Assembly: GCA_020627535.1 (NCBI GenBank)
Contig: JAHDGU010000003.1
Location: forward strand, 1-64,000
Length of the DNA: 64,000 nt
Reading direction: 5' to 3'
Source of the DNA: Saprospiraceae bacterium
GTDB lineage: Bacteria; Bacteroidota; Bacteroidia; Chitinophagales; Saprospiraceae
Position 1 is the first letter of the stretch. Every line of letters starts with the position of its first letter. Positions 48,895 through 64,000 of this stretch are shown one piece after another. The notes below the pieces were generated by a model. That model did no database searches. It saw only the letters and a list, made by a program, of their open reading frames with translations, and was not told where the DNA came from. A program made the position numbers and the translations under genes.

Positions 48895-50382
48895 ATGCAA
48901 TACATTCTCTCTCTCGATCAAGGCACTACGAGTAGCAGGACACTGGTCATCGACAAAGATGCTCGGGTGAGGGCTGTCGCCCAAAAGGAGTTTCGCCAAA
49001 TCACGCCACAAAATGGATGGGTAGAGCATGACCCTGAGGATATCTGGAACAGCCAGATTGATACAGTCAGAGATGTCATGCGCAAAATGAATATCACTGC
49101 TGATGATATCGCAGCGCTAGGCATCACCAATCAACGAGAAACTACTCTGGTCTGGCAACGCTCTACCGGAAAGGCGCTGCACAATGCAATTGTATGGCAA
49201 GACCGAAGAACTGCTAAGTTTTGTCAGCAACTAAAGGATGAAGGACACGAGGATACATTTCGCAGAAAGGCGGGTCTCCCTCTTGACCCGTACTTCTCAG
49301 GCACCAAGCTCAGATACATCTTGGACGAGCATGCAGAGGCACGCCGACTGGCAGCTGCGGACGATCTCTGCTTTGGCACAGTGGATACATGGCTCATCTA
49401 CAACTTGACCGGCGGCAAGGAGCACGTCACAGATCACTCCAACGCTTCTCGAACATTGATGTACAATTTGGAAACAAATGACTGGGATGATGAACTTCTC
49501 GATCTGCTTGGCGTACCGAGATCGGTACTACCAGAAATCAGGAATAATGATGCCTTGTTTGGCACAGTTGACGCCTCCGTAGGTATCGGAGCTGGGATGA
49601 AGATCCACGGTGTGGCAGGTGACCAACAAGCCGCACTCTTTGGTCAGCAATGTTGGTCTGCTGGTGACGTGAAAAACACCTACGGCACAGGCTGCTTTGC
49701 GCTAATGAATGTAGGAAACTCTCCGATCAGATCAGAGCGTGGATTGCTCTCTACCATGGGCTGGATTACGAAGTCTCAAAAAGCTTATGCCCTTGAAGGA
49801 AGTGTCTTCGTTGCGGGCGCGGCTGTGCAGTGGTTGAGAGATGGTCTCAACATCATATCGGATAGCAATGAAATCGAGGCTCTTGCTAAATCTGTAGACG
49901 GCAGTGATGGCGTGGCTTTTGTCCCTGCACTTACTGGACTAGGTAGTCCGCACTGGGATCCGATGGCCCGTGGCACGATCATAGGGCTTCATAGAGGCAC
50001 GACGAAGGCACATATCGCTCGTGCGACCCTGGAAGCAATTGCTCTTCAAAGCCATGACCTCATCTCAGCGATGGAAGCCGACTCTGGTAAAAAAATGACT
50101 GAGCTGCGTGTCGATGGTGGTGCAACCAGAAATGACCTACTCATGCAGATTCAGGCGGACATGATTGATACGGACGTCCGTCGCCCTTCCAATCAAGAGA
50201 TGACAGCTATGGGCGCGGCATATCTCGCAGGTCTTGGATGTGGCTACTGGAAAGCAAATGATCTCAGATCGGACGACACATCAAGTGACGTCTTCCATTC
50301 GCAAGCTGATGAGGAGAGTGCGAGACTCAAAGATCAGTGGCAGCGGGCAGTCGAGAGATCCAAAGCTTGGATGCAGGGCTAG
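48895..50382 (+). CDS. glpK: Glycerol kinase
   Basis: The 495-residue FGGY kinase starts YILSLDQGTTSSRTLVID (phosphate-1 loop). It contains GWVEHDPEDIW, GITNQRETTLVW, NAIVWQDRRT, and the FGGY signature region DGGATRNDLLMQIQADM. It phosphorylates glycerol to glycerol-3-phosphate. No glpF or glpD is adjacent. Its stop codon shares the palindromic CTAG with the stop of the convergent trehalase gene. Confidence 0.96.
   Translation: MQYILSLDQGTTSSRTLVIDKDARVRAVAQKEFRQITPQNGWVEHDPEDIWNSQIDTVRDVMRKMNITADDIAALGITNQRETTLVWQRSTGKALHNAIVWQDRRTAKFCQQLKDEGHEDTFRRKAGLPLDPYFSGTKLRYILDEHAEARRLAAADDLCFGTVDTWLIYNLTGGKEHVTDHSNASRTLMYNLETNDWDDELLDLLGVPRSVLPEIRNNDALFGTVDASVGIGAGMKIHGVAGDQQAALFGQQCWSAGDVKNTYGTGCFALMNVGNSPIRSERGLLSTMGWITKSQKAYALEGSVFVAGAAVQWLRDGLNIISDSNEIEALAKSVDGSDGVAFVPALTGLGSPHWDPMARGTIIGLHRGTTKAHIARATLEAIALQSHDLISAMEADSGKKMTELRVDGGATRNDLLMQIQADMIDTDVRRPSNQEMTAMGAAYLAGLGCGYWKANDLRSDDTSSDVFHSQADEESARLKDQWQRAVERSKAWMQG
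48971..48986 (-). repeat. T-run mini-hairpin, variant loop (stem GGGC/GCCC, loop GACA)
   Basis: GNNA loop; same GACA variant as at 63365. Inside glpK. Confidence 0.5.
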
Positions 50383-51845
50383 TCTTCATCGAGTGACTTC
50401 ATCGCAAGGTATACGCCGTTGGTCCAGCCAAATCCATCCTGATTGGGGTATTCTCCACCTGTGGCGGTGTCATTGGTCAGGACATTGTACTTCTCGACGA
50501 GTTTCCCATGTTTCTCATAGTAGCTCTCTATGGTGGTGATCCAGCGTGATCGGATGATCTCAGCATATTCGTCAAATCCATAATTCTTCATTGCTTTGTA
50601 AGCGACCCAATTGAGCGGTGCCCATCCATTGGGCGCATCCCACTGCTGGCCAGATTGGATCTGGCTTGTCAGCACGCCGCCGTCTACCACGAGCTCATGC
50701 ATAAACTTCTCAGCTACGCGATTGGCAATATCTTGCTCGACCATGTTGACAAAAAGTGGAAAGATTGCCGAGGCATAGTATCTCTTCACAAGTTGATTTG
50801 ACTGGAAGTCATAGTCAAAGAAAAATCCATCATCTGGGTCATAGCATTGCTCTATCAAGTCTTCTGCCCTGCTCTCAGAAAGGCCGAGGAAATCTCCATT
50901 GGCTGTTTGATCTCCAAGTCGTGAAAAGCACTCTGCGATCAGCAATTCCATACCATATAGCAGGCTATTGAGATCCACCGGTAGGATCGCAATGGTCCTG
51001 ATCGTCTGGAGGTCAAAAGGATTTTTGCACCAACGACTTGAGAAATCCCAACCTGACTCACAGGCTGATCTCAGATTGCGATATAGACTAGGATCCTTGG
51101 TCTCTTCATACATCAAGACATCTTCCTGATAAGATTCTGGCCTGGGCTCTGGTAAGCGATCCCAATACCTTGCGAGCTGGGTATGATGTATCGTCTCCAC
51201 AAAGTGGCCGGTAAATGGTTTTTCCTTCAATTGATCTTCCACTACCCAGAAATTGTACTCTTGTAGAAGCGACTCAAGGTAATCTTGGGCGATTTCTAGC
51301 CCAGTGCAGTCTTCATATAATCTGATCATCAGATAGAAAAACGGCGGCTGCGAGCGAGAAAGAAAGTATTCTCTATTGCCATTGGGGATGAAGCCAAATT
51401 GCTTGATGCTATGGGCAAAATTGTCTATCATGCTCTTGATCAACTCATACTTGCCATCTACAGCAAGACCAAGCATCGTGAAGTAGCTGTCCCAATAGTA
51501 GATTTCATTGAATCTACCACCAGGTACCACATAGTCATGAGGTATCGGAAATCTCGTGCCAACTTTTTCTGTCTCGCCTGGACGCGTAAGATATGGCCAA
51601 AGCTTTTGGACATGCTCGGTTGCAGACTGACTTTCGAGAATCACTCCATCTTTTTCTTGTGGCATGCTGAATGCCTCACTCACAAGAGTCCTCAGCTCAA
51701 TGTCCGTCATATTTGGCCGAAAGGCCGCGTATGCTTCACGCAATGGCCAAAGAGGTACGGCGTCAGCGAAGCTCTTGGAATCCTCAAAGAGTCTCCTCAT
51801 CTGCACCTCACGAAACAAAGCTGATTGTAAAAAGTCCATAGTCAA
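50379..51845 (-). CDS. Trehalase (GH37)
   Basis: The 488-residue enzyme carries both GH37 signatures: PGGRFNEIYYWDSYF near 107-121 and QWDAPNGWAPLNW near 397-409. It hydrolyses trehalose to two glucose. No signal peptide is visible, so it may be cytoplasmic (TreF-like), which fits the divergently transcribed sugar permease only 24 bases away. Confidence 0.93.
   Translation of the reverse strand: MTMDFLQSALFREVQMRRLFEDSKSFADAVPLWPLREAYAAFRPNMTDIELRTLVSEAFSMPQEKDGVILESQSATEHVQKLWPYLTRPGETEKVGTRFPIPHDYVVPGGRFNEIYYWDSYFTMLGLAVDGKYELIKSMIDNFAHSIKQFGFIPNGNREYFLSRSQPPFFYLMIRLYEDCTGLEIAQDYLESLLQEYNFWVVEDQLKEKPFTGHFVETIHHTQLARYWDRLPEPRPESYQEDVLMYEETKDPSLYRNLRSACESGWDFSSRWCKNPFDLQTIRTIAILPVDLNSLLYGMELLIAECFSRLGDQTANGDFLGLSESRAEDLIEQCYDPDDGFFFDYDFQSNQLVKRYYASAIFPLFVNMVEQDIANRVAEKFMHELVVDGGVLTSQIQSGQQWDAPNGWAPLNWVAYKAMKNYGFDEYAEIIRSRWITTIESYYEKHGKLVEKYNVLTNDTATGGEYPNQDGFGWTNGVYLAMKSLDED
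51712..51726 (+). repeat. T-run/GNRA mini-hairpin (stem GGCC/GGCC, loop GAAA)
   Basis: Inside the trehalase gene, coding for AAFRPN in the opposite sense. Confidence 0.7.
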
Positions 51846-51869: not shown

Positions 51870-53132
51870 ATGAAGACTCCTGGCTCCAGTAATTTGCCCA
51901 TCAAGCTATCCATCTTTCTCAACTACATGGTATTTGCGGTGCTCCTCAATAGCGTCGGCATCGTCATCCTTCAGGTACAAAATCAATATGGTGTCAGCCC
52001 ATCAGAGGCAAAGTTTCTCGAGGGATTTAAAGATTTGACGATAGCTGTCGTTTCTTTTTTCGTTGGGCTATTGGTGCTTCGAGTGGGCTACAAGCGTAGC
52101 ATGCAGTGGGCGATCCTCTTGGTCACCATGATTTGCTTTGCGATGCCACTGGTTCCAAGCTTCTGGATGAGCAAGTTGCTCTTTGCCGTGGTAGGTTTCT
52201 CTTTTGCGATCGTCAAGGTTACCGCTCTGAGTACCATCGGCCTCATCACAACTGGTAAGGAAGAACACTTGTCTTACATGAGCTACCTTGAGGCACTCTT
52301 TATGGTAGGCTTATTTGGTGGTTACTTGCTCTTCGGTGAGTTTGTGAAAGATGTAGATCCAGATCACACATGGTTGAAAGCATACTATATCGTAGGGGCC
52401 ATATCTCTAGGCGCACTGATCTTATTGACCCTGAGTCCACTGGATGAATCGCAGGTAGACCGTAGTGAAAAGAGCTCCATCTTGCATGATCTCATGAATA
52501 TGCTTCTGCTGGGAATCAAGCCGTTGGCACTCATCTTCATCGTATCCATCTTCATGTACGTTCTCATAGAACAAGGAATACAAAGCTGGCTGCCCACTTT
52601 CAACAATAAGATTTTGGATTTGCCAAGCGACACGAGTATCAGGCTGGCTGCAATCATGCCGCTTGCCATTGCCCTCGGGAGATTCATGGGAGGATATCTG
52701 CTCAAGCGGATCGAGTGGATCTATGTCCTCGTGATTTGTGTCATCCTATCCGCTGTGCTCTTGTTGATTTCCCTACCGATGGCAGGCACCGACTACAGCA
52801 TGCGGCTCGGCACATGGCTGGATGTGCCTATGGCTGGTTTGATTTTCCCTTTGATCGGCTTATGGCTGGCTCCGATATATCCAGCACTCAATTCACTCAT
52901 TCTGTCATCGCTTCCGCTCAAAGATCATGCGCCTATGACTGCCTTGATCGTTGTCTTCAGTGCCCTAGGAGGCACTACGGGTTCTGCCTTGATGGGTTGG
53001 TTATTTGAAGAGATGGAGGGAGCCAATGTATTTTACATCATCTTGATTCCGATGGTCTTACTCCTCATCGCGATGATCCTTTTCCGAAGATCAAGTCCTA
53101 CGAGTACTATAAAGTCAGCTGCACAGAACTGA
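51870..53132 (+). CDS. Major facilitator superfamily sugar permease
   Basis: The 420-residue integral membrane protein has about 12 hydrophobic helices in two six-helix halves, with an MFS-like loop after helix 2 (LRVGYKRSMQW). It lacks a signal peptide and ends in a short polar tail. Divergent with trehalase (24-base spacer), it may import trehalose or its product glucose. The 3' end overlaps the convergent haloperoxidase-like gene by 26 bases. Confidence 0.82.
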   Translation: MKTPGSSNLPIKLSIFLNYMVFAVLLNSVGIVILQVQNQYGVSPSEAKFLEGFKDLTIAVVSFFVGLLVLRVGYKRSMQWAILLVTMICFAMPLVPSFWMSKLLFAVVGFSFAIVKVTALSTIGLITTGKEEHLSYMSYLEALFMVGLFGGYLLFGEFVKDVDPDHTWLKAYYIVGAISLGALILLTLSPLDESQVDRSEKSSILHDLMNMLLLGIKPLALIFIVSIFMYVLIEQGIQSWLPTFNNKILDLPSDTSIRLAAIMPLAIALGRFMGGYLLKRIEWIYVLVICVILSAVLLLISLPMAGTDYSMRLGTWLDVPMAGLIFPLIGLWLAPIYPALNSLILSSLPLKDHAPMTALIVVFSALGGTTGSALMGWLFEEMEGANVFYIILIPMVLLLIAMILFRRSSPTSTIKSAAQN

Positions 53133-54453
53133 CCAAGAGCTCACCGACTTGCTTGCCCTGATTGACACCTTCTTCAATGGCAGGTCTGTAGTGTATTCCA
53201 CCGTATAGACGAGACACAGCTGCTTCAGCGCTTGCCGCATAGAACGAGGAAAAACTCCGCACAGGCAATCCATACTTGAGCTCTGTCGTGTCTTCAAAAG
53301 CAAAGTCGTCACCGAAAATGGATGTGAGAGCCACAGCCGCTGCCGTGGATATCACACTATGTCCACTCGTATACTCAGGAAATGGAGGTGTCTGCAGGAG
53401 TGGTTTCCAAGAGGGATCGATGTGCTCGTTGATGTATGTCTCCGGCCTGATGAGATTGCTTCTATACTTCTCATCCCAACAACTGATAAATGCATCAAAC
53501 AAGGCTATCGAGCACATCGCATAAGCACGTGCTGTGGTGGCCCAATCAGCTTTTGACTGCTGACAGGCGATCTTGACAATTCCCATCCAGTGGCCACCAG
53601 GGGTGATCTTCTTTGTGGCAAACATCATGTGACCGGTCTGATTCATCACGTAGGGATTGCAATCCCAAAAACTGGCTATTTCGCGCTCTTCCTGCTGTGC
53701 CTTGAGACCAGTATCATAGACTTCCATGACTTCCGTAAAAAACTGGCTGGACTTGAGCTTGCTCACTGGTGTAGGTGGCTTGGGCTGAAACTGGTCAGCA
53801 GAAGCCAAGATCATCGGTCGGATCTTCTTCCAGTGTGGTTCTATGCCTTCCATGTAGGCCGGAGGCGTCGGCTTCCAAGTATCAGGTTCGTCGTCAATCG
53901 CATGTTTGGGGAAAGACCTCGTCTGTGCGTAGTTATCTGAGCTAGACCAGTTGACGATCACTTGTGAGACTTGCTTAGCATATGATTGAGATGCCTTCAT
54001 CACTTTGCTCGGAATATCTAGCTCGGCCAGCTGTTGATCCATCTCAGATATGTAGGCATCCATCTTGTCCTGAGAGAAGATGAATTCACGAGCGGTGTAA
54101 ACAAAGGCATACAAAGCGCTCAGTCGATATGATACTGCAGCTTCTGGTGCTGGCGTGGCAGGTGCATGAGAAATCTGTCCATGGAGTGACTGGAGTGTGC
54201 TATCACCGAGTGCCATCACTTCATAAAAAGCAAGACATGGATAGACGTAGTTTCTACTCGCTTGAGGTGGACTGAATATGTCATGCACGATGACATCTGT
54301 AAATCGATCCATAGACTGATGCATGAGGTCAACAGGGATAAGATCCTCATTGACAGGTACGTCTGACTTACAAGAAACAGCAAATAGTGCCAGAAATCCG
54401 ATGGTGACACATCCTAATATTTCTCTCAAACCGCTATGATGACTCCTTCCCAT
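53107..54453 (-). CDS. Vanadium-dependent haloperoxidase / PAP2-type lipoprotein
   Basis: The 448-residue protein has a lipoprotein signal (LALFAVSC). The vanadate/phosphate-binding motif set of the PAP2 superfamily is present: K329-x6-R336-P, S-G-H365 (EYTSGHS) and S-R415-x5-H421 (SRLYGGIH). Helical N-terminal layout and length fit bacterial vanadium haloperoxidase-like proteins, but halide activity versus phosphatase activity cannot be decided from motifs. It overlaps the upstream glucosidase gene by 28 bases and ends the operon. Confidence 0.83.
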   Translation of the reverse strand: MGRSHHSGLREILGCVTIGFLALFAVSCKSDVPVNEDLIPVDLMHQSMDRFTDVIVHDIFSPPQASRNYVYPCLAFYEVMALGDSTLQSLHGQISHAPATPAPEAAVSYRLSALYAFVYTAREFIFSQDKMDAYISEMDQQLAELDIPSKVMKASQSYAKQVSQVIVNWSSSDNYAQTRSFPKHAIDDEPDTWKPTPPAYMEGIEPHWKKIRPMILASADQFQPKPPTPVSKLKSSQFFTEVMEVYDTGLKAQQEEREIASFWDCNPYVMNQTGHMMFATKKITPGGHWMGIVKIACQQSKADWATTARAYAMCSIALFDAFISCWDEKYRSNLIRPETYINEHIDPSWKPLLQTPPFPEYTSGHSVISTAAAVALTSIFGDDFAFEDTTELKYGLPVRSFSSFYAASAEAAVSRLYGGIHYRPAIEEGVNQGKQVGELLVSSVQLTL

Positions 54454-56081
54454 GCTTGTAATTTACCTGTAAAAGTATCACCAGGGGATAGATAGTTTGC
54501 CATGACTACAGTGCATCCGCTTCCATGTGAGATACTTGTCTGCTCAGCGGAAAAATTGAGGAAGACCTGCCATTGCTGATCATCAAAACGCATCTCATAG
54601 GCGAAAGTCTCTACTCTAGAGGTTTCTATTCTCTTCCATGTGCCGTACACGAAGTTCCGATGCTGTTTTCTGAAGCGCAGTAGCTCCCTATAAAAATGTA
54701 GGATTGACGCTGGATCACTTTCACAGTCCTTGACATTTATTTTTGTGAAATTGGGATTGACATCAAGCCACGGCTTGGCGGTACTGAAGCCAGCATGACT
54801 AGAGCTGTCCCACTGGATCGGGACTCTCACATTGTCCCTGCCTACATCAGATACCATTTTCATAAATGTCGCTGGATCTCCTCCTTTCTCGACATATATA
54901 TTGTAAAAGTTAATGGTCTCTACATCTCGGCATTGATCAATACTGTCGAATGTACGATTGGTCATTCCAATCTCTGAGCCCATGTAGATACTTGGTGTAC
55001 CTCTGAGCGTCAGGAGAAGAATAGCAAACATTTTGGCGCAAGCCTCTCTATGCTCCCCATCATCACCAAAACGCGAGATCATCCGCTGAAAATCATGATT
55101 ATCAAAAAATGGACTGATCCAGCCACCTTCCTCGATGATATCATTCCAATCTGCAATCACATCCAGGAATCGCTTGAGATCGAAAGCCACAGGATCAAAC
55201 TTGCCATCTGCACCATGATCCATGAACATATGGTCAAAGTGGAATATCATACTCAGTTCTCCGCGCTCAGCTCCTATGTAATCAATGGCATTGGTGCGTG
55301 TGATACCCGGTCCCTCTCCTACAGTGAAAACATCATATTGACTCAAGACATCGGTGTGCAAATCATGGAGATACTCATGGATGCGAGGCCCATTGGCGTA
55401 GCGCTCGATCACTACTTCACCGAAGGCCTTCTTGGTCGTATCAGTCAGTGGATAGTCCTTGGATATCAGTGATATAACATCCATGCGAAATCCATCTATC
55501 CCCTTATCCAGCCAATATCTGACGAGGTCATGAATCTCCTGGCGCACACGTGCATTTTCCCAATTGAGGTCTGGCTGCTTCTTGGTAAAGAGATGCAGAT
55601 AGTACTGCTGTGTCTCCTCATGAAACTCCCAGCTAGATCCACCGAAAAAACTTGGCCAGTTAGTAGGTTCCTTCCCATCGACGGCATCCCTCCAGATGTA
55701 GTAGTCTCTGTAAGGAGAGTCCTTGGAGCTCTTGGACTTTTCAAACCACTCATGCTCATCACTCGTGTGGTTGACAACCAAATCCATCACCAGCTTCATG
55801 CCCCGCTCGTGTATACCCTTTAGCAAAGCATCAAAGTCTGCCATCGTCCCAAAATCTGGGTGAATGGCGCGGTAATCACTGATATCATAGCCATTGTCAT
55901 CATTGGGAGAGGCATAGATGGGGCTCAGCCATATGATATCTATACCTAGTGATTGAATATAGTCTAGACGTGAAATGATTCCCGGAATGTCACCGATACC
56001 ATCGCCATTGGAATCCTGGTATGATCGCGGATAGATCTGATAAATTACTTGCTCTTTCCACCATGTCTTGGTTTGACTCAT
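54426..56081 (-). CDS. GH13 alpha-glucosidase (oligo-1,6-glucosidase-like)
   Basis: The 551-residue GH13 enzyme starts with VIYQIYPRSYQDSNGDGIGD. It has conserved regions I-IV: DLVVNHTS, DGFRMDVISL (nucleophile Asp near 203), VGEGPG (acid/base Glu near 254) and FFDNHD (Asp near 323). It lacks a signal peptide, indicating intracellular hydrolysis of small alpha-glucosides such as isomaltose or sucrose-like sugars. Gene overlaps on both sides (4 and 28 bases) show tight coupling with Gfo/Idh and haloperoxidase. Confidence 0.9.
   Translation of the reverse strand: MSQTKTWWKEQVIYQIYPRSYQDSNGDGIGDIPGIISRLDYIQSLGIDIIWLSPIYASPNDDNGYDISDYRAIHPDFGTMADFDALLKGIHERGMKLVMDLVVNHTSDEHEWFEKSKSSKDSPYRDYYIWRDAVDGKEPTNWPSFFGGSSWEFHEETQQYYLHLFTKKQPDLNWENARVRQEIHDLVRYWLDKGIDGFRMDVISLISKDYPLTDTTKKAFGEVVIERYANGPRIHEYLHDLHTDVLSQYDVFTVGEGPGITRTNAIDYIGAERGELSMIFHFDHMFMDHGADGKFDPVAFDLKRFLDVIADWNDIIEEGGWISPFFDNHDFQRMISRFGDDGEHREACAKMFAILLLTLRGTPSIYMGSEIGMTNRTFDSIDQCRDVETINFYNIYVEKGGDPATFMKMVSDVGRDNVRVPIQWDSSSHAGFSTAKPWLDVNPNFTKINVKDCESDPASILHFYRELLRFRKQHRNFVYGTWKRIETSRVETFAYEMRFDDQQWQVFLNFSAEQTSISHGSGCTVVMANYLSPGDTFTGKLQAWEGVIIAV
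55031..55044 (+). repeat. T-run/GNRA mini-hairpin (stem GGC/GCC, loop GCAA)
   Basis: The only GCAA-loop copy; inside the GH13 gene. Confidence 0.6.
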
Positions 56082-57034
56082 GATTCTGTCATTTTAGCGG
56101 AAGCGAAGGCCCAGTCCATCAACTCTGCAAGCTCTAGACTCCTCGTCCATGGTATGATATCTGATTGCCTGTGTCCGGCTGCAATCCTCTGCGAGACATG
56201 GTGCAACTCATGTAGGTAACCTGTACTCTCAAAGGGAATCGAAACACGCTTTTCTACCTGAGTGGTCCTCTGGCTGTAGGACTGCATCCGCCAAAAATAA
56301 GCGCTGTGCATAGAGCCCTGAGTGCCATATATAAATGCATCATGATCCGTCTCAAGACCTATCGACGATGCAAAGTGAGCCATCTGTCCATCACCATAGT
56401 CTGCGATGATCTGGCAGTGCTCATCTACTCCCGTCTCTGTGAGATGCATCAGGGATTTGAGATGCTGGGGCTTTCGCCCAAAAATGTCCTGACTCAGTGC
56501 CAGACAATATATGCCAACGTCCCACAAGCTCCCCCCAGCTAGAGATGGATTCCATAGTCGACTCTGTGGATCACGGTGGCTGGAAAAGCTAAAATCTGCC
56601 TTCAGCCACTTGACCTCTCCAATCTGCTTGGTGTGCAATTGATCAAGCATCGACCGATAAGCTGGTAGAAAACACATCCAGATGGCTTCCATGAAGAAGA
56701 CTCCATGTGTCCGAGCACAATCTATCATCTGCCGGACTTTTCGGGCAGACGTGCTCAGTGGTTTTTCGCAGAGCACATGTTTTCCTGCAGCCATGGCAAG
56801 CATGGCATGATCTAGGTGAAAATTGTGGGTGGTGCTGATGTAAACAATATCCACTTGGTCGTCTCGACAGAGCTCCTCATAGTCGTCGTAGACGACAATA
56901 TCAGTCATCTCTTGTGCCAGAGTAGAGGCATTGGATCTGGAGGCAAGTGCATGTAGGCGATGTCCAGGAAGCTGCTTAAGGCTCTCATGAACCTTAGGTG
57001 CTATAGCGCCGTAGCCTAAAAATCCCCAATTCAC
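56078..57034 (-). CDS. Gfo/Idh/MocA family oxidoreductase
   Basis: The 318-residue protein has an N-terminal NAD(P)-binding motif (MNWGFLGYGAIAPKV), the family signature HVLCEKPLSTS near 90-100, and a C-terminal alpha/beta domain. It probably oxidises or reduces a sugar or inositol-like substrate. The overlap with GH13 (4 bases) and 3-base gap to the upstream propeller gene place it in the sugar operon. Confidence 0.9.
   Translation of the reverse strand: MNWGFLGYGAIAPKVHESLKQLPGHRLHALASRSNASTLAQEMTDIVVYDDYEELCRDDQVDIVYISTTHNFHLDHAMLAMAAGKHVLCEKPLSTSARKVRQMIDCARTHGVFFMEAIWMCFLPAYRSMLDQLHTKQIGEVKWLKADFSFSSHRDPQSRLWNPSLAGGSLWDVGIYCLALSQDIFGRKPQHLKSLMHLTETGVDEHCQIIADYGDGQMAHFASSIGLETDHDAFIYGTQGSMHSAYFWRMQSYSQRTTQVEKRVSIPFESTGYLHELHHVSQRIAAGHRQSDIIPWTRSLELAELMDWAFASAKMTES
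56468..56484 (-). repeat. T-run/GNRA mini-hairpin (stem GGGC/GCCC, loop GAAA)
   Basis: Five T on the minus strand. Inside the Gfo/Idh gene; same core as the intergenic 33782 copy. Confidence 0.75.
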
Positions 57035-57037: not shown

Positions 57038-60000
57038 TTAAATATTGGATGAATTGATACGCATCAACTTGAGTGGCTCATCATTACGAGCTATGAGCAA
57101 GTATTGATTTCCACCCGACTTGAGCGCTTGGATGTGTTTGACTTGGCCTTTGATTCCAAGATTTTGATACTTACCTGCCTCAAGTGTACCATCGTCATTG
57201 AGCAAAATAGAGCCATAGTCAGCATCGTACCTACCAAGCTGGATGTTGCAATCGTAATAGTTGCCACCAGTGATGAGATCAGGATCATCATCACCATCGA
57301 TATCTAGGTCGAGGACTGCATAGATAGGAGATTTCTGCGCCAATCTGGGCAACGCCTGTAGCTCAAATTTCCCGCTCCCATCATTGATTAAGATGGCATT
57401 GGAGAAGTAGTCTGATTCAAGTACTACTGCATCACGCATCACATCCACTCCGAATAGATCCTTGGCATTGGCCTGAGCAAAATCCTTGGCATATAGATAC
57501 TTCTTCTTGAGCACGGGCATTTGAGATTCTAGCTCCATCTTATTGGAGAAGGGAAGCTCTCGTCCCTCCAGGAAGTAGCTCACGATGTGTTCCTTGCTAC
57601 CATTTCCATCAAAGTCATGGTAGTACATGCGCAGTGGCTCTGACTCAGAGGCTGTGAGACGACTATTGAGTCCAAGGTTACCCGCCACGAGATCAATATC
57701 TCCATCACTGTCAATATCTACTGGATGAATCACATTCCACCAGCCACTTCTATCTGTGAGATCAATAAGATGCCAAGTATCTGCAGTGCGATCGAATGCC
57801 TTGATCTTGTCCCACTCCATCGCCAAGACGATCTCATTTTCTGCATCAGTATCGATATTACAGACTATGGCATCTTTGATCATCCCTAAGCTGGACAAGT
57901 CCTCATGAAAGTCCTCACTGACATTTTCATATTTCCCCTTTCCCATATTGCGATAGACATACGAGCTAGGACGCTTACCATAAGTTCTAGGATGAGAGCG
58001 TGCTGTAAAAAGCAAGTCTTGTAGTCCATCACCATCCATATCGAATGGCACAATAGAAGAGCATGTCAATGCAAGACCGCCAAATTGTGAAGCATCTTCT
58101 TGAAAATTGCCTTGACCATCATTGATCAGTAGTCTTACGCGACTATTGACACTCTTTAGATCCCACTCACTTCCACCGGCACCGATGATCAGATCCTGAT
58201 CGCCGTCTTCATCTAGGTCTATGGCGAGAGATGCCGTCTCTTCAATGACACTGTCTTGCATCCATGACTGATCCTGTCCGATCCAGTTCTCTCCTCTTGA
58301 TAGGTACAGACCAGACCGCTGACGTTTAGCTCCACCGACAAAAAAGTCATCATTGCCGTCACCATTGAAGTCTGCAACTGCTATCGTAGGACCTTCTGAA
58401 GAAGTCATGTGCGGGATGAGCGGCTCCGACAGAAATTCGATGAAGTCATTTTCCTTATGCACAAAGAATGGCTCGATCAGCTGTGATGCATCTTGGATGC
58501 CTAGTTCTTGACGGGGATTGGCGAGATCAACAACTCCAGCACTTTTGGACGAAAGTCCCTCTGAGCTAGGTGAATAGGTGATGGTCATCATCGTAGAACT
58601 ATCGGCGAGCTCTATCTGAGTAGATCCATCTGGCCAGAGTATAGTGATTTCTTTACCAGGTAAACCAGGAATGATGACATTGCCGTGGCTAGCAGATTGA
58701 AAACCTCGCACAGGATAGTTGTCAATCGATACCAACTCATCATCACTTTTTCTCATCAGGATGCGCGCGCCGATGGCATTGCGATTGCCCTCCGGCCCAG
58801 TAAGTGAAATGGTCTTGCCTGCGGTAGCCTGACGTGTAGAATTGATATAGACAAGCGCCTCGTCATTGATATTGTTGCTGACAATATCAAGGTCGCCGTC
58901 ATTGTCCAGGTCAACGCTGACGGCACCATTGCTGTAGCTCCTAGGATTCCCACTGACGTCTTGATCTTGGAAAGAGAGCTTCCCTGAATTGTGGTAAAAC
59001 TTATTGGGCAATTTGATTTCTGGAAGCTTATTGATAATCTCCAAATCCTTCTGCTCCATATTGTCAGACTTGATCTTCCACTGTACATCTTCTCCCTTCA
59101 TGAAATTGATGTAGTCAATGTCATTCATGCGCTTGGGAATACCATTGCTGATGAATAAGTCTTTCCTACCATCCATATCAAAGTCTGCAAACAGCGGTGC
59201 CCATGACCAGTCCGTCGCATGCACTCCGGCCATCATCGCCACATCCGAGAAGCTTCCATCGCCATTGTTGAGTTGAAGATTGTTTTTGGCATACTGGTGA
59301 TTATAGCCATATCCAAGCTTGAAGCGAAATACATTGAGTGCATCTTCGCCCTCTGACATCTTGAGGATCGTCGGATCCTCAGGAAGCATATCAAGACTGA
59401 CGATGTCATTCCAGCCATCTCCATTGATATCTGCCATGTCAACACCCATAGAGAATCTGCTAGTATGCATGATCATGTCAGTAAGACTCTCCGAGAATGT
59501 TCCATCTTGATTGTTGATATAGAGGTAGTCATTCTCATGGAAGTCATTGCCGATATAGAGATCTACCCATCCATCATTGTTGACATCACCAGCAACGACA
59601 CCCAGGCCATAGCCTATGACACTAGAGTGGATGCCGGCCTGCTCCGTGACGTCAATGAAGCGGCCGTCACGATTCTCAAATAGCTTGTCTCCCGCCAGTG
59701 GATGAGGCGAATTGTCAAAAGTCTTTCTCTGCCCAAATGTCCCATTGTCATGCACACTATGCTTGAGCTGAAACATGTCGAGATCATTATCACGATCATA
59801 GTCAAAAAAGACGGCTTGCGTGCAAAAGCCTTTGAGGTCAAGACCAAACTCAGCGGCTGCTTCTCGATACTTAGGGACGCCACTCTCTATCCCTGTACAA
59901 AGCCAAAGTTGATTCGCCTGGTCCAAGTACTGGAAGTCGGAGACATTTGACACATAGATATCCAGCAATCCATCTTGATTGATATCGACAATACTCACAC

Positions 60001-60376
60001 CATTGTTCCAGCTGGAGGCGCTGTGCAGTATTCCCGCTTGCTCTGTAACATCCGCGAATCTCAAGTCACCCTCATTGATATATAGTCGATCTTCTGCTTG
60101 ATTACTGGTAAAGTATAGATCCACCAATCCGTCTCCATTGAAATCTCCAGCACCGACGCCTCCTCCATTGTAGAAATACATGTAGCGGAAGATATTCATA
60201 TCAAGATCCAAGGTAAGGTCATTGGAAAAGTCTAATCCCGTCCTCTCACTTGACAGCACCTCAAAAGACAAGCTATGGTCAGCCTCCTTCGATTGTGAGA
60301 CCTCACTATGACAGGATGCAAGGCTTAATAGGCCAAGAAGGGCAAGAAAAAATGTACTATTGATCAATCTCTTCAT
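57038..60376 (-). CDS. FG-GAP/VCBS beta-propeller lipoprotein with ASPIC/UnbV domain (CRTAC1-like), copy 1
   Basis: The 1112-residue lipoprotein (signal ending LLSLASC) is built from many FG-GAP/VCBS repeats with Ca-binding D-x-N/D-x-D-G-x-x-D loops (DFNGDGLVDLYF, DINQDGLLDIYV), arranged as two propellers. An ASPIC/UnbV domain lies between them at about 530-600 (NAIGARILMRKS to ITILWPDGSTQ). Such proteins are usually surface lipoproteins in SusCD loci, with unknown ligand. ATG 60376 is chosen for its signal peptide; it overlaps the upstream paralogue by 20 bases. Confidence 0.87.
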   Translation of the reverse strand: MKRLINSTFFLALLGLLSLASCHSEVSQSKEADHSLSFEVLSSERTGLDFSNDLTLDLDMNIFRYMYFYNGGGVGAGDFNGDGLVDLYFTSNQAEDRLYINEGDLRFADVTEQAGILHSASSWNNGVSIVDINQDGLLDIYVSNVSDFQYLDQANQLWLCTGIESGVPKYREAAAEFGLDLKGFCTQAVFFDYDRDNDLDMFQLKHSVHDNGTFGQRKTFDNSPHPLAGDKLFENRDGRFIDVTEQAGIHSSVIGYGLGVVAGDVNNDGWVDLYIGNDFHENDYLYINNQDGTFSESLTDMIMHTSRFSMGVDMADINGDGWNDIVSLDMLPEDPTILKMSEGEDALNVFRFKLGYGYNHQYAKNNLQLNNGDGSFSDVAMMAGVHATDWSWAPLFADFDMDGRKDLFISNGIPKRMNDIDYINFMKGEDVQWKIKSDNMEQKDLEIINKLPEIKLPNKFYHNSGKLSFQDQDVSGNPRSYSNGAVSVDLDNDGDLDIVSNNINDEALVYINSTRQATAGKTISLTGPEGNRNAIGARILMRKSDDELVSIDNYPVRGFQSASHGNVIIPGLPGKEITILWPDGSTQIELADSSTMMTITYSPSSEGLSSKSAGVVDLANPRQELGIQDASQLIEPFFVHKENDFIEFLSEPLIPHMTSSEGPTIAVADFNGDGNDDFFVGGAKRQRSGLYLSRGENWIGQDQSWMQDSVIEETASLAIDLDEDGDQDLIIGAGGSEWDLKSVNSRVRLLINDGQGNFQEDASQFGGLALTCSSIVPFDMDGDGLQDLLFTARSHPRTYGKRPSSYVYRNMGKGKYENVSEDFHEDLSSLGMIKDAIVCNIDTDAENEIVLAMEWDKIKAFDRTADTWHLIDLTDRSGWWNVIHPVDIDSDGDIDLVAGNLGLNSRLTASESEPLRMYYHDFDGNGSKEHIVSYFLEGRELPFSNKMELESQMPVLKKKYLYAKDFAQANAKDLFGVDVMRDAVVLESDYFSNAILINDGSGKFELQALPRLAQKSPIYAVLDLDIDGDDDPDLITGGNYYDCNIQLGRYDADYGSILLNDDGTLEAGKYQNLGIKGQVKHIQALKSGGNQYLLIARNDEPLKLMRINSSNI
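58543..58558 (+). repeat. T-run/GNRA mini-hairpin (stem GGAC/GTCC, loop GAAA)
   Basis: Inside propeller copy 1, just after the ASPIC/UnbV domain; the only stem with an internal A-T pair at the third position. Confidence 0.7.
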
Positions 60377-63300
60377 TGCGGACATATACTTTAGGGCTGT
60401 CATCATTGAGTAAAAAGAGATAAGCATCTTGATTGTTGTAGTCGATCTTGAGGATCTGTCGGCACATACCACGCACATCCAGACCGGATTCATTGGCAGC
60501 CAAAGGGACAAATTTTCCCTCCGATGTCTGGAGCAGTACAAGGCCATGACTCGCATCTAGTCTGCCAAACTGTGGCAAGAAGCCGTATTCGTTTCCAGCC
60601 AGTAAGAGATCGAGAAGTCCATCGCCATCGAGATCATCCGTCAAGATGGCATGCACACTACTCAGCTGGGCTGCGACAGGCAGTTCCATGATGCGAAATT
60701 CACCTCCGCCATCATTCCACGCTATGATTGACTTGGTGAAGTTGACTGACTTCTGCAAGGATTGATCTAGTTGCTCCGCTGAGAAAAGATCCTGGATGGA
60801 CTTGCCCGCAAACTCTTCATGAAGGAGATTATTTTTCTTCAGGGATACTACCTGATCGAAGACATCTTTTTTCATGAAGACAGGACTATCCTCTCCGTCT
60901 ACGGAACGTGTCATGATTTTCTCAACTGTCCCATTGGCATCATAGTCATTGACCCAAATCTTGATAGGTAGATTGGGCTCTCGGAGATAAAAGTTATCAC
61001 CAAAATTGCCAAGCACTAGATCCTGATCACCGTCGCCATCGAGATCAGCAGCATGGACACTTCTCCACCAGCCATGGAGGCTATCCATAGTGGTAGCTCG
61101 ACGCTCGTACTTCACGCCATTGTAGACGAAGATCTTGGGAGCACCCCAATCTGAGACCGTCACGATCTCTCGGTGAGCGCCTCCCACTAGATCGACAAGC
61201 GCAGCGTCAGTGACCATCCCAGCTCTATAGAGATCTTGGTGCTCAGTGCCTCCTATTTCTCTGAATCTACCTGCTCCGGCATTCTCGTACACATAATTTG
61301 GTGGATCGACACCATAATTGAGCGGAGCAGATCTCGAAAAACTAAAGATATCTTCATCACCATCCTCATCAAAGTCATATACCAACACCTTGGAGGTATT
61401 CATACCGTTTCGTGGGATAGCATATGGGTCATTTTGCAAGGATCCATCATTGGTCACCATGCGATCAATCATGGGTCTGGACATTGGTGGATGGTGATTT
61501 CCTCCTGCACCTAGATAGAGATCCAGATCACCGTCATTATCCTTATCGATCGCTGCTATGGCTGTCTCTTCATAGGGTGTAAAGAGATCTTCTAGGTCGC
61601 CTGCTGACACTTTTGTATAATTGCCACGGCTTGTCGCATGATATATCTGACTTGGCTGACCGGCAGCACCGGTGATGACGAGATCCTTCCGTCCATCGCC
61701 ATTGAGATCCGCATAGAGAGCCTGTGGACCTTCATTGCTCAGTTGCTGGAGTATATTGCGCTCATAGTAGAAGTCTATATAGTCATCTTCCGTATGTGGT
61801 TCCATGAAGCTGAGAGCGCTTTCGCGCAAAAGAGCCGTTCCAGACTGTCGAGTAATTGCTGTCTTGATGTTTTGTCCTTGAGATATGACTATAGTAGTAT
61901 CAATCGGGATTTCCTTGATACTTTGCATTTGGCCTTGAGGCCATATGATCATCACGGAGTCAAGCTTAGCGGCGTCTCCCAATCCAAAGTGCAAGAGATC
62001 ATAGCTTGATGACTGAAAACCTCTTGAAGGGACATTGTATCTTGAGAGCACTTCACCTTGGAGATAGACTTTGACTTCTGCACCAATGGCATCTACATTA
62101 GGTGACTGGCCTTGGAGTCGCAGATTCAGGTAGTGGTGATCCGTCAGCTTGTCACTCCGGTTCTGGTAGATCATGGCAGGCATGTTGACATTGTTGATCA
62201 CGAAGTCAAGATCACCATCAAGATCTAGGTCGGCATACGCGGCGCCGTTAGAAAAAGTCTTTTGGCGGAAGCCCCACTCACTGCTCACATCTTCAAAACT
62301 CAGATCGCCGCGATTGGTGAAGACTTTGTTCTGCACTGGTACAGATGGCATGCGGGCTATGATGGAATCAAGTGCTTGCTTTTTGCCCGAAAGGGCCATC
62401 TTCTGCATGAGCTCATTGGCGAAGAAATCGATGAAGTCTTGATTGATCACGTCGTGATAGATACCATTGCAGACAAATATGTCGCTGTATCGATCATTAT
62501 TGGCATCAAGCATCAATACACCCCAACTCCAGTCTGAGGCACTCACACCACTGAGATTAGCAACTTCTTGGAACCGTTGATTCTTGTTGTTGAGCTGCAG
62601 GGTATTTTGCATGTACTGGTGATAAAATCCCTTGTCTTGCTTGAGCTCGTAGATATTGATATTTTCAAATGCCGTCGTCGTCTTGAGTCGATGCTCATCA
62701 TCGGGTAACATGTCTGTAACGAAGATATCAGGGAAGTCATCATTGTTGATATCCGCGAGATCGGCTCCCATGGATGAAAGACTGATATGCTCTGTCCAGT
62801 CCTCTAGCTCCTCCGAGAAGGTACCATCCTGCTGATTGATGTAGAGGTAGTCGCGTTCAAAAAAGTCATTGGAGACATACATGTCTGGCCATCCATCCTG
62901 ATTGATATCACCTACCGTCACACCGAGACCAAAACCAATGAGACTTCCATAAATGCCGGCCTCATCGCTGACATCGATGAACTTGCCACCATCATTGCGC
63001 AAGAGTTTGTCTCCACCACCCTTGAGAAATTCCTTCACATCCCAATTATCTGCGCGCTGATCACGACGATTGCTATAGTTGAGCGTGTTGACAGGAATGA
63101 AACTATTGTTGAGGATGTATACGTCGAGATCTCCGTCATGATCGTAATCAAAAAATGCAGCGTGAGTGGTGTATCCCCCGTCGTCGAGGCCATATTCTGA
63201 CGCCTTTTCCGTAAAGGTGAGGTCTCCATTGTTGATGTAAAGGGCATTGTGCTGAGCAGCCTCCTTGCGATATCCCGCATTACAGACGTAGATATCTTGC

Positions 63301-63704
63301 AGACCATCTTGGTTGATGTCAATCATGACGACACCGGTACTCCAGTTCTGTGATTCTTCGATGCCGGCTGTCGCCGAAATGTCCTGAAATTGAAGATTGC
63401 CCTTGTTGAGATATAACTTATTGGCGCCGAGATTGGAGGTGAAGAAAATATCAGGGAGCTCATCATTATTGATATCTCCTATCCCTACGCCACCACCATT
63501 GTAGAAATTCCGGTAATTGAAGATGTTGTAATCTTCTGTATTGTATACATGATTGATGAAGTCTACACCTGTAGCTGCAGAGTCGAGCAAGACGAACAAA
63601 TCATCCGCCTGTGAGATCTCCTTTGGGTGCTCTGATGGCCCACAGCTACTGATCACAAGTGCGAGCATGATGGCAAATGAAAGAGGTCTGAGCTGTCTTA
63701 TCAT
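60357..63704 (-). CDS. FG-GAP/VCBS beta-propeller lipoprotein with ASPIC/UnbV domain (CRTAC1-like), copy 2
   Basis: The 1115-residue protein (lipoprotein signal ending LVISSC) is a paralogue of the downstream gene along its whole length: both open with a GGGVG-x-GD propeller start, both carry an ASPIC/UnbV domain at about 535-600 (AIGAEVKVYL to VMIIWPQGQMQ), and both end with a second propeller. They are clearly diverged, so this is an old duplication. It follows the susD terminator and is the first of five tightly packed genes. Confidence 0.87.
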   Translation of the reverse strand: MIRQLRPLSFAIMLALVISSCGPSEHPKEISQADDLFVLLDSAATGVDFINHVYNTEDYNIFNYRNFYNGGGVGIGDINNDELPDIFFTSNLGANKLYLNKGNLQFQDISATAGIEESQNWSTGVVMIDINQDGLQDIYVCNAGYRKEAAQHNALYINNGDLTFTEKASEYGLDDGGYTTHAAFFDYDHDGDLDVYILNNSFIPVNTLNYSNRRDQRADNWDVKEFLKGGGDKLLRNDGGKFIDVSDEAGIYGSLIGFGLGVTVGDINQDGWPDMYVSNDFFERDYLYINQQDGTFSEELEDWTEHISLSSMGADLADINNDDFPDIFVTDMLPDDEHRLKTTTAFENINIYELKQDKGFYHQYMQNTLQLNNKNQRFQEVANLSGVSASDWSWGVLMLDANNDRYSDIFVCNGIYHDVINQDFIDFFANELMQKMALSGKKQALDSIIARMPSVPVQNKVFTNRGDLSFEDVSSEWGFRQKTFSNGAAYADLDLDGDLDFVINNVNMPAMIYQNRSDKLTDHHYLNLRLQGQSPNVDAIGAEVKVYLQGEVLSRYNVPSRGFQSSSYDLLHFGLGDAAKLDSVMIIWPQGQMQSIKEIPIDTTIVISQGQNIKTAITRQSGTALLRESALSFMEPHTEDDYIDFYYERNILQQLSNEGPQALYADLNGDGRKDLVITGAAGQPSQIYHATSRGNYTKVSAGDLEDLFTPYEETAIAAIDKDNDGDLDLYLGAGGNHHPPMSRPMIDRMVTNDGSLQNDPYAIPRNGMNTSKVLVYDFDEDGDEDIFSFSRSAPLNYGVDPPNYVYENAGAGRFREIGGTEHQDLYRAGMVTDAALVDLVGGAHREIVTVSDWGAPKIFVYNGVKYERRATTMDSLHGWWRSVHAADLDGDGDQDLVLGNFGDNFYLREPNLPIKIWVNDYDANGTVEKIMTRSVDGEDSPVFMKKDVFDQVVSLKKNNLLHEEFAGKSIQDLFSAEQLDQSLQKSVNFTKSIIAWNDGGGEFRIMELPVAAQLSSVHAILTDDLDGDGLLDLLLAGNEYGFLPQFGRLDASHGLVLLQTSEGKFVPLAANESGLDVRGMCRQILKIDYNNQDAYLFLLNDDSPKVYVRNEEIDQ
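61816..61831 (-). repeat. T-run/GNRA mini-hairpin (stem GCGC/GCGC, loop GAAA)
   Basis: Inside propeller copy 2; four T on the minus strand. Confidence 0.7.
62260..62273 (+). repeat. T-run/GNRA mini-hairpin (stem GGC/GCC, loop GGAA)
   Basis: Inside propeller copy 2; same core as at 45585. Confidence 0.65.
62380..62396 (+). repeat. T-run/GNRA mini-hairpin (stem GCCC/GGGC, loop GAAA)
   Basis: Five T precede the stem; inside propeller copy 2, only 106 bases from the previous element. Confidence 0.75.
63365..63379 (-). repeat. T-run mini-hairpin, variant loop (stem CGGC/GCCG, loop GACA)
   Basis: Same stem as the murB copy (17248), but with a GACA loop. Inside propeller copy 2. Confidence 0.5.
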
Positions 63705-63709
63705 AAATC

Positions 63710-63742
63710 AAAAAAAGGCTGCCTTCTTGAGAAGGCAGCCTT
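63710..63742 (-). terminator. Strong rho-independent terminator after susD
   Basis: A perfect 12-bp stem (AAGGCTGCCTTC/GAAGGCAGCCTT) with a 4-base loop is followed by a U run on the minus strand. It separates susD from the propeller operon and may set their relative expression through read-through. Confidence 0.85.
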
Positions 63743-63765
63743 GTAAATATTGAAAATCTTATGGA

Positions 63766-64000
63766 TTAGTATCCAGGATTTTGTACAAGATTTGGGTTTA
63801 CTGCCAATACCCTCGCAGGAATCGGGAATAGGAGTCTTTCCTCGCCCGATGCAGGCTTTTCTTCCCATGCATCTAGGTACTTACCAAACCTAAGCAGATC
63901 TGTTCTTCTGTGACCTTCCCAGTACAGCTCGCGCCCTCTCTCGGCAAGAAGCTCATCCAAGGTTATACTTGAAATTTCGCTCGCTCCACGTGCCGTTCTG
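63766..64000 (-). CDS. SusD/RagB-family starch-binding-like lipoprotein, C-terminal part (cut by window edge)
   Basis: Only the last 77-78 residues are visible. They carry the SusD C-terminal pattern: LDELLAERGRELYWEGHRR, then TDLLRFGKYL, and the closing LLFPIPARVLAVNPNLVQNPGY-type end. SusD proteins bind glycans at the outer surface and cap the SusC TonB-dependent channel, which should lie further right. The frame is open to the edge, so the gene is complete but truncated by the window. Confidence 0.9.
   Translation of the reverse strand, partial: RTARGASEISSITLDELLAERGRELYWEGHRRTDLLRFGKYLDAWEEKPASGEERLLFPIPARVLAVNPNLVQNPGY

Follow-up and report, generated by a model that had tools for sequence, protein, structure and literature searches.

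Why should two giant propeller lipoproteins and a haloperoxidase-like enzyme stand behind susD, in a row of genes that also holds sugar enzymes? The question is raised by a locus of a Saprospiraceae bacterium (GenBank GCA_020627535.1, contig JAHDGU010000003.1), of which we analysed the first 64,000 nucleotides (the window). The original prediction described five minus-strand genes linked by overlaps or gaps of 20, 3, 4 and 28 bases, and this was confirmed by the open reading frame coordinates. These genes encode two FG-GAP / UnbV_ASPIC propeller lipoproteins identified by Pfam, ASPIC1 (60357..63704, 1,115 amino acids) and ASPIC2 (57038..60376, 1,112 amino acids), a Gfo/Idh/MocA oxidoreductase with a GTG start (56078..57034; PF01408, PF22725), a GH13 alpha-glucosidase of oligo-1,6-glucosidase-like type (54426..56081; PF00128, E 2e-159) and a ZgVIPO1-type vanadium haloperoxidase (vHPO; 53107..54453), a predicted lipoprotein of PAP2 fold that was recognised with phmmer and AlphaFold2. 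ASPIC1 and ASPIC2 overlap by 20 bp, a 3-bp gap separates ASPIC2 from the Gfo/Idh gene, and the following junctions are overlaps of 4 bp (Gfo/Idh-GH13) and 28 bp (GH13-vHPO). The start of ASPIC2 was re-assigned, its length being counted from the lipoprotein start; the longer open reading frame start at 60556 overruns ASPIC1. The Pfam domains of the row are FG-GAP_3 and UnbV_ASPIC in both propellers, GFO_IDH_MocA, Alpha-amylase and PAP2.

The vHPO is about 50% identical to the crystal structures 4CIT and 4USZ over nearly its full length (phmmer, E 2e-150 over residues 4-444 of 448). A vanadate pocket of the form K-x6-RP / SGH / SR-x5-H had been claimed for it, and K329-x6-R336-P, S363-G364-H365 and S414-R415-x5-H421 are indeed present. 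These contain the residues K, R, S, G, H, R and H that we take to be the vanadate-binding positions of the family, and K329, R336, S363, G364, H365, R415 and H421 are all identical in the alignment with 4CIT. The pocket residues are invariant in alignments A1 and A3; among 205 aligned vHPO sequences, K329, R336 and H365 are kept in every one, R415 and H421 in 204 (with one gap), S363 in 191 (14 have C) and G364 in 193 (12 have A). Structure prediction, a check suggested with the original prediction, gave a fold that matches 4usz/4cit with TM 0.83-0.90 (0.84 by query and 0.90 by target for 4usz), and a lipobox cysteine was read by eye at residue 28. By sequence, the vHPO is better described as related to ZgVIPO1, a characterised iodoperoxidase, than as an unspecified PAP2 protein. 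Enzymes of this type were found in 104 of 198 genomes of the same order (E 1e-40) and in 47 of 295 genomes of the class (E 1e-60).

The propellers had been called paralogues on a scale of about 1.1 thousand residues, which agrees with their lengths and with an identity of 37.5% over 1,114 columns. The combination of UnbV_ASPIC and FG-GAP domains is clear in ASPIC1 and near the cut-off in ASPIC2, where hmmscan scored the UnbV_ASPIC match at 21.2 bits (cut-off 23.4) and a second search at 26.8 bits, above the cut-off. Loops of the form D-x-[DN]-x-[DN]-G number nine in ASPIC1 and 11 in ASPIC2. The AlphaFold2 model of ASPIC1 (pLDDT 89, pTM 0.90) found its best fold match in mouse CRTAC1 (9etn, TM 0.72 by target length).

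A survey for a conserved neighbourhood, likewise suggested earlier, was performed on two samples with gene labels taken from profiles built on the loci themselves rather than from Pfam on every gene. Set A holds the best-first 119 regions, each of at most 20 kb, among the matches listed in the same order (some contigs are short, and L182 contributes just the sequence upstream of an enzyme that is itself in L180), and set B holds 80 named loci, the best 80 of at least 585. The two sets were not summed because they share genomes (L048/L090, L058/L119 and L067/L160). A small control was formed by 19 random windows, which are the 20 fetched of 40 drawn, minus L257, excluded for its overlap with a listed vHPO match. 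ASPIC genes were present in 87 of the 119 vHPO windows of set A, in 48 of the 80 loci of set B and in none of the 19 random windows. The linkage between ASPIC and vHPO genes recurs, and in some loci SusC and SusD also keep constant places upstream. Sets A and B, with their shared genomes, contain 65 directly adjacent same-strand ASPIC-vHPO pairs spaced by -65 to 280 bp. In 12 genomes of other orders (the best-scoring of 41 such genomes with a match in the class survey), 16 of 20 vHPO genes had a same-strand upstream ASPIC gene within 15 kb, versus about 0.6 expected; the ASPIC partners in this sample were always on the same strand and upstream, and in six of the 12 genomes all ASPIC matches (16/16) had a vHPO gene no more than 15 kb away. 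A Zobellia uliginosa gene that is 98.4% identical to ZgVIPO1 stands directly behind three ASPIC genes.

The relatives of the two propellers also show slot orthology relative to the vHPO gene. Among the 74 ASPIC proteins of set B, the five best relatives of ASPIC2 are each the last ASPIC before the vHPO (L150, L114, L118, L119 and L106), and for ASPIC1, 27 of its 29 best relatives occupy the second-last ASPIC slot, the exceptions being L108 (third-last slot, next to a broken open reading frame) and L101 (opposite side). The partnership is not universal: vHPO genes stood in same-strand runs, some of which end at contig ends, without any ASPIC, Sus or alpha-glucosidase gene in 61 of 133 cases in set A and 32 of 80 in set B, suggesting that the enzyme also works without such partners. 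The two nearest tree neighbours of the window vHPO (L046 and L042) have no ASPIC gene within four genes; L042 has a more distant SusC-SusD-ASPIC run, with an ASPIC that shares 61% identity with ASPIC1. Along the vHPO tree the ASPIC label changes 24 times versus a mean of 61.5 when shuffled, so the label follows the tree and the locus counts are not independent.

Upstream of the row, both the susD 3' end (63766..64000, minus strand; open reading frames, Pfam SusD_RagB) and the terminator claimed behind it were found, the latter as a minus-strand hairpin between susD and ASPIC1 (63742-63715) with a 12-pair stem followed by a T-rich tail. Beyond the window end, in locus L041 (contig 63001-83000), SusD (contig 63766-65286) and SusC (65305-68253) are adjacent on the same strand (L041 766-2286 and 2305-5253; Pfam SusD_RagB, Plug, TonB_dep_Rec). 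The hairpin has the most pairs among 11 terminator-like sites in our scan, a total that is not above chance (shuffle mean 8.6). Where susD and ASPIC genes stand 25-400 bp apart, a similar hairpin occurred in 28 of 32 gaps, the window's own included (32 of 37 such junctions were counted, shorter and longer gaps being excluded, and some genomes are in both sets), versus 82 of 856 other same-strand gaps. Because it also follows susD before unlabelled genes (five of eight gaps, two of three in control windows), an ASPIC-specific switch was dropped, and the hairpin is probably a general feature downstream of susD; it may separate susCD from the rest of the row. A Bacteroidota-type promoter match was found about 80 nt ahead of susC and none between the genes of the row, which is consistent with the single operon proposed earlier, as a weak pattern given that about 0.5 chance matches are expected in each search. 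The incidence of SusC in windows (44/119 in set A and 21/80 in set B versus 6/19 controls) was unconvincing as linkage evidence and was dropped. For the SusCD link only gene position carries weight: on the same strand in set A, SusD stood at position -2 in 18 of 125 cases and SusC at -3 in 19 of 116.

Glycoside hydrolases at the locus comprise the GH13 inside the row, whose best solved relatives are oligo-1,6-glucosidases and in which no signal peptide was evident by eye, and a GH37 trehalase next door (50379..51845, minus strand; PF01204, E 4.5e-128), the only strong trehalase match in the genome (the second is a partial 52-bit match). Between the trehalase and vHPO genes lies an MFS transporter gene (51870..53132, plus strand; Pfam MFS_1), convergent with the vHPO gene and overlapping it by 26 bp; both trehalase and MFS genes are outside the row's transcription unit. 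A glycerol kinase gene, glpK, follows (48895..50382, plus strand; NCBIfam TIGR01311, 694 bits, cut-off 590). Relatives of all four recur in surveyed vHPO loci: GH13 genes about 55% identical (L083, L110, L094, L092), GH37 downstream of the vHPO, MFS genes about 50% identical (L096, L172, L169; L096 has the same order of vHPO, convergent MFS and GH37) and GlpK relatives 48-53% identical (L097, L109, L138, L123, L140, L108). GlpF/GlpK/GlpD-type genes are present in L108, L123 and L138 and GlpK/GlpD-type genes in L109 and L140, labels checked with NCBIfam in L138 and L109. At least one of GH65, GH37, GH13 and GH97 occurred in 26 of 119 windows of set A and 25 of 80 of set B versus 0 of 19 controls. 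Sugar hydrolysis, predicted as part of the system, holds for the window and a minority of loci. No alpha-glucosidase-family gene was seen in 68 of the 87 windows of set A that carry ASPIC genes, nor in 31 of the 48 of set B. The GH65 representative in L194 matches FjGH65A (7fe3) at 924 bits; the two GH65 matches of the window genome sit on other contigs. By their sequence families, these neighbours point to alpha-glucosides as the substrate class.

Sugar oxidation by the Gfo/Idh enzyme as a regular part of the system was not borne out and was rejected, since such genes occurred in only 3 of 119 and 6 of 80 vHPO windows versus 1 of 19 controls and close relatives are rare: only two relatives of the window protein (P0003) pass E 1e-25 in vHPO loci, both about 34% identical. 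A Gfo/Idh gene immediately precedes the vHPO gene in L096 and L102, and that of L096 differs in its C-terminal domain. Among the genes of the row we recognised no enzyme that produces H2O2. Glycerol-3-phosphate oxidase was rejected as H2O2 source on the score of the L138 DAO gene (oxidase model, 498 bits, cut-off 840; a dehydrogenase model, 360.7 bits, cut-off 360). The genome's single GMC oxidoreductase match, which is on another contig, was also dropped.

The explanation that we tentatively prefer, and consider quite possible, is an alpha-glucoside SusCD uptake locus carrying a recurrent accessory module, in which one to several propeller lipoproteins of the ASPIC/FG-GAP kind precede a lipoprotein that is a vanadium iodoperoxidase of ZgVIPO1 type. 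The substrates would be small alpha-glucosides, with trehalose, kojibiose-like disaccharides and glucosyl-glycerol as candidates. SusCD would import the sugar, MFS and sodium-solute carriers would move it inward, and GH37 and GH13 would cleave it. The propellers, through their Ca2+-type loops, may hold or help the iodoperoxidase close to the importer, where it would oxidise iodide with H2O2 derived from oxidation of the released glucose or from algal neighbours, with peroxide removal and reactive iodine for capture or defence as the presumed effect.

Alternatively, the enzyme might only clear H2O2 during algal feeding, its bond to sugar being limited to expression at feeding sites. The Zobellia vanadium iodoperoxidase vIPO3 was upregulated on Ascophyllum nodosum versus alginate (PMC9296495), as this would predict, but peroxide protection alone leaves the recurrent ASPIC partners and their slot orthology unexplained, and we consider it somewhat unlikely.

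An improbable alternative is that the PAP2-fold lipoprotein is a phosphatase that removes phosphate from sugar or glycerol phosphates ahead of uptake. Class A acid phosphatases of the PAP2 group carry the signature K-x6-RP ... PSGH ... SR-x5-H-x3-D. The vHPO breaks it at two places, with T362 for P (TSGH) and A425 for D; P is found at the former position in 14, and D at the latter in 12, of the 205 vHPO sequences. The PAP2 fold itself, the phosphate intermediate that the title of 3bb0 allows on apo-chloroperoxidase, and the glycerol genes of several loci, which would suit phosphorylated glycerol glycans, speak for dephosphorylation. However, in a fold search with the vHPO model the nearest solved entries were iodoperoxidases (E 7e-33 and 9e-33), and acid phosphatases appeared only at E 2e-3 and worse. 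Sequence and predicted fold together favour a haloperoxidase rather than a phosphatase role.

Quite improbably, the substrate may be teichoic acid, glycolipid or other complex alpha-glucosyl-glycerol polymers rather than small solutes. Kojibiose occurs in teichoic acids, larger molecules suit a SusCD importer, and a GH65 gene of kojibiose-hydrolase-like type occurs with glycerol genes in L108 and a GH65 with a GlpD-type gene in L114; however, the scanned cluster representatives (a subset of the locus genes) included neither a lipase nor a phosphodiesterase, and trehalase recurs in vHPO loci. That ASPIC, vHPO and sugar genes are neighbours merely through the clustering of surface lipoprotein genes, with no shared task, as the tree-following ASPIC label might suggest, is highly improbable given the same-strand upstream partners in other orders and the 65 adjacent pairs.

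Returning to the uptake locus with its propeller-iodoperoxidase module, the recurrent pairing hints at a link between feeding on sugars and the chemistry of iodine. What the crystallised bacterial vanadium iodoperoxidase does for the cell is unsettled in the literature examined; for this widespread group of enzymes the ASPIC neighbours supply named partners and the alpha-glucoside genes candidate substrates, and ASPIC/UnbV propellers in turn gain a concrete partner. We found no earlier report of the pairing in the open-access literature searched, where papers that name two or more of FG-GAP, ASPIC, UnbV and VCBS yielded no co-mention of haloperoxidase, and Fournier 2014 and Amachi 2007 may describe the neighbourhood. 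A bolder idea, which we regard as unlikely, is that Bacteroidota use ASPIC propellers together with ZgVIPO-type enzymes as a dedicated halogenation machine of the envelope, Ca2+-dependent and driven by sugar, in which glucose freed by the locus would be oxidised nearby, yielding H2O2 for iodide oxidation. Such a machine would underlie, genetically, the iodine accumulation that depends on glucose, oxygen and calcium, a possible gene-level explanation that bears on the iodine cycle.

Compared with known systems, the window resembles SusCD polysaccharide utilisation loci in that susC and susD precede lipoproteins and a glycoside hydrolase, but differs in the ASPIC propellers and haloperoxidase behind susD. 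Its propellers share FG-GAP repeats and the ASPIC domain with CRTAC1 (9etn), but are about twice as long, are lipoproteins and have extra FG-GAP repeats beyond the ASPIC domain. FjGH65A of Flavobacterium johnsoniae has kojibiose hydrolase activity (PMC8626586; enzyme also in PMC10316084), and its GH65 relatives recur in vHPO loci, but the window locus has no GH65; in the main text of PMC8626586 the terms 'haloperoxidase', 'PAP2' and 'gene cluster' are absent. ZgVIPO1 of Zobellia galactanivorans (4CIT, 4USZ) shares about half of its residues, the pocket and the fold with the window enzyme, and is a characterised iodoperoxidase (listed with an iodoperoxidase assay in PMC8407142), whereas the window enzyme is known from sequence and predicted fold; the Z. 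uliginosa locus (L143) differs in having no gene of the GH65/GH37/GH13/GH97 set within 10 kb on either side. In Arenibacter C-21, iodine uptake requires glucose, O2 and Ca2+, glucose can be replaced by an H2O2-generating or iodide-oxidising system, and at least five homologues of ZgVIPO are encoded in the genome (PMC5064120). That paper names the PAP2 homologues and assigns the process no other genes; what its system has in common with the window locus is the proposed coupling of sugar oxidation to a haloperoxidase and the requirement for Ca2+.

Five closely packed genes on the minus strand of the window form a row downstream of susC and susD: two genes for FG-GAP/UnbV_ASPIC propeller lipoproteins (ASPIC1, 60357–63704, and ASPIC2, 57038–60376), a Gfo/Idh gene (56078–57034), a GH13 gene (54426–56081) and, last, the gene for a PAP2-fold lipoprotein, P0005 (vHPO, 53107–54453). 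Reading from ASPIC1 to vHPO, the first two genes overlap by 20 bp, ASPIC2 and Gfo/Idh are 3 bp apart, and the last two junctions are overlaps of 4 and 28 bp. SusD, and then SusC, are encoded on the same strand of the same contig beyond the window end. Elsewhere in the window, a 2,012-residue open frame occupies 37604–43642 of the minus strand.

We compared P0005 with all solved structures, and its best match was the Zobellia galactanivorans vanadium iodoperoxidase ZgVIPO1 (4CIT/4USZ; E 2e-150, residues 4–444 of 448), with the next haloperoxidase at E 7e-4. An AlphaFold2 model of P0005 (pLDDT 83) matched 4CIT/4USZ with a TM score of 0.83–0.90, and acid phosphatases reached no better than E 2e-3 in this fold comparison. 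P0005 has the pocket residues of 4CIT: K329, R336, S363, G364, H365, R415 and H421. Across 205 aligned sequences, among them the window enzyme and 4CIT, K329, R336 and H365 were invariant and R415 and H421 differed by one gap only, while S363 was replaced by C (C-G-H for S-G-H) in 14 enzymes and G364 by A (S-A-H) in 12. A table in a review enters Zg-VIPO1 with an iodoperoxidase assay (PMC8407142). Sequence and model together suggest that P0005 is likely a haloperoxidase, probably an iodide-oxidising one. The C-G-H enzymes occurred in loci of the kind L163, L166, L169, L171, L177, L194, L202 and L206, where paired vHPO genes lie behind GH65 with the small proteins f8 and f16 and the outer-membrane-like f10; the S-A-H group adjoined ASPIC genes (L180, L200, L208, L209, L212, L216, L227, L229, L230, L231, L236, L240).

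At E 1e-40, 104 of 198 genomes from the order contained a relative of P0005. For set A we took 119 regions around such relatives, best-first, each no longer than 20 kb; set B comprised named loci, the best 80 of at least 585, with no more than 10 kb of flank on either side. The controls were 19 random 20-kb windows from such genomes. ASPIC genes were present in 87/119 windows of set A and 48/80 of set B, versus 0/19 controls (Fisher p 5e-10 and 6e-7, values that ignore relatedness). In set A, an ASPIC gene lay directly upstream of vHPO on the same strand in 35/132 cases and on the other strand in 6/132, and directly downstream in 28/131, half of these on the opposite strand; in set B, 30/75 cases had an adjacent same-strand ASPIC gene upstream. 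A separate draw of 295 genomes from the class served as an independent sample; 47 of them had a vHPO-type enzyme at E 1e-60. Among the 12 best-scoring of 41 vHPO-bearing genomes outside the order, ASPIC genes lay within 15 kb of 16 of 20 enzymes, versus about 0.6 expected, and in those 16 cases always upstream of vHPO on the same strand. These loci held 32 of the 59 ASPIC matches of the 12 genomes, and all 16 of those in six genomes (G211, G407, G351, G358, G368 and G338).

An ASPIC gene lay within four genes of 129 of the 205 enzymes, and this label changed 24 times on a tree of these enzymes, whereas shuffles gave 61.5 changes on average. Common descent therefore accounts for part of the linkage, and the locus counts are not independent events. 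Against the linkage, the same-strand runs that hold 61/133 enzymes of set A and 32/80 of set B lacked ASPIC, Sus and alpha-glucosidase genes alike, and the window enzyme's two closest neighbours on the tree had no ASPIC gene within four genes.

ASPIC1 and ASPIC2 are each about 1,110 residues long, are predicted to be lipoproteins and combine FG-GAP repeats with a UnbV_ASPIC domain; the window's genome has 14 ASPIC domain matches in 4.09 Mb. The two propellers contain nine (ASPIC1) and 11 (ASPIC2) D-x-[DN]-x-[DN]-G loops, a loop type known for Ca2+ binding in integrin propellers, and the top structural match of the ASPIC1 model (pLDDT 89, pTM 0.90) was mouse CRTAC1. We compared the propellers with 74 ASPIC proteins of set B, each 1,060–1,160 residues long. 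Of the 29 best ASPIC1 relatives, 27 were the second-last ASPIC before the enzyme; the other two were from L108, which has a broken ORF, and from L101, in which the gene is on the other side. For ASPIC2, the top five relatives (L150, L114, L118, L119, L106) were all the last ASPIC before the enzyme, and slots were mixed among lower-ranked ones. By sequence, then, the slots before vHPO look orthologous between loci. The Zobellia uliginosa locus L143 has the order ASPIC-ASPIC-ASPIC-vHPO, and its vHPO shares 98.4% identity with the ZgVIPO1 of the crystal structures. A protein of about 200 residues (f9), with no Pfam match in the two examples scanned, is encoded between the first and second ASPIC genes of L047, L083, L095, L109, L111, L123, L138 and L140.

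Alpha-glucoside genes accompanied vHPO in a minority of loci. Judged from cluster representatives, this set comprised GH65 (924 bits against the kojibiose hydrolase FjGH65A), GH37 trehalase, GH13, GH97, sodium-solute and MFS carriers, a LacI regulator and a ROK kinase. Any of the four hydrolase families was found in 26/119 (A) and 25/80 (B) windows, versus 0/19 controls (p 0.02 and 0.003), and 19 of these 26 and 17 of these 25 windows also held ASPIC genes. Counted per vHPO gene, GH65 lay upstream and, in most same-strand cases, at -1 or -2 (17/27 in A, 8/10 in B), and GH37 was downstream on the same strand in 15/15 and 14/15. GlpF, GlpK and GlpD types were present in L108, L123 and L138, and GlpK and GlpD types in L140 and L109; NCBIfam confirmed GlpK in L109 and the MIP channel in L138, and placed the DAO gene of L138 between oxidase and dehydrogenase. 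The window itself has GH13 within the row and MFS, GH37 and GlpK genes beside it; this GH37 is the sole strong trehalase match of its genome, and this GlpK exceeds the NCBIfam cut-off. A Lewinellaceae MAG (L096) shares the window's order of vHPO, convergent MFS and GH37, and the sodium-solute carrier beyond susC is 73% identical to that of the Fulvivirga locus L114. Comparison of coordinates in 18 other-order genomes placed four of 12 trehalase matches (E below 1e-100) within 6 kb of vHPO, on the same strand in G358 and G338 and on the other strand in G469 and G395. From glucose and glycerol as the products, we infer trehalose-like and glucosyl-glycerol-like substrates. A DUF1800 protein (46929–48629) adjoins the glycerol kinase gene, and a DUF3179-type gene (f42; 17367–18551 of L138, the copy on which Pfam was run) lies near GlpK/GlpD-type genes or vHPO there and in L123 and L096.

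The presence of Gfo/Idh is ordinary: such genes were found in 3/119 (A) and 6/80 (B) windows versus 1/19 controls, and close relatives of P0003, the window's own Gfo/Idh protein, were rare in vHPO loci. A Gfo/Idh-like gene immediately precedes vHPO in L102 and in L096 (8630–12543), the latter with a C-terminal domain other than the window's. SusC is likewise frequent in any window (6/19 controls).

We searched for the Bacteroidota-type promoter pattern. The sole match in the 20-kb stretch L041 (contig bases 63001–83000) preceded the susC start by about 80 nt, and the single match within the window was near base 4400, far from the row. These positions point weakly to one transcription unit, because about 0.5 matches per search are expected by chance. 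A 12-pair hairpin (63715–63742) lies between susD and ASPIC1, its stem ending ten bases from the ASPIC1 start codon with a T-rich tail between; part of the transcripts may therefore terminate at susD. Strong hairpins lie 3' of susD at most junctions surveyed, and such a hairpin seems to be an ordinary feature of susD ends in general; an attenuator between the importer genes and the downstream lipoproteins is possible.

In the mechanism that we propose, SusCD would take up the glucosides, and the carriers with GH37 and GH13, neither of which has an evident signal peptide when read by eye, would complete processing inside the cell. Both propellers and P0005 are predicted lipoproteins and would remain in the envelope, where the iodoperoxidase would require H2O2; within the row, no gene was found that would supply it. 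The marine Bacteroidota strain Arenibacter C-21 has at least five ZgVIPO homologues, and its iodine uptake is reportedly dependent on glucose, oxygen and calcium; an H2O2-generating or iodide-oxidising system could substitute for glucose, and a membrane-bound glucose oxidase acting with a haloperoxidase was proposed (PMC5064120). In the boldest reading, a locus that puts an iodoperoxidase and Ca2+-type propellers beside the putative release of glucose would fit the physiology of Arenibacter C-21.
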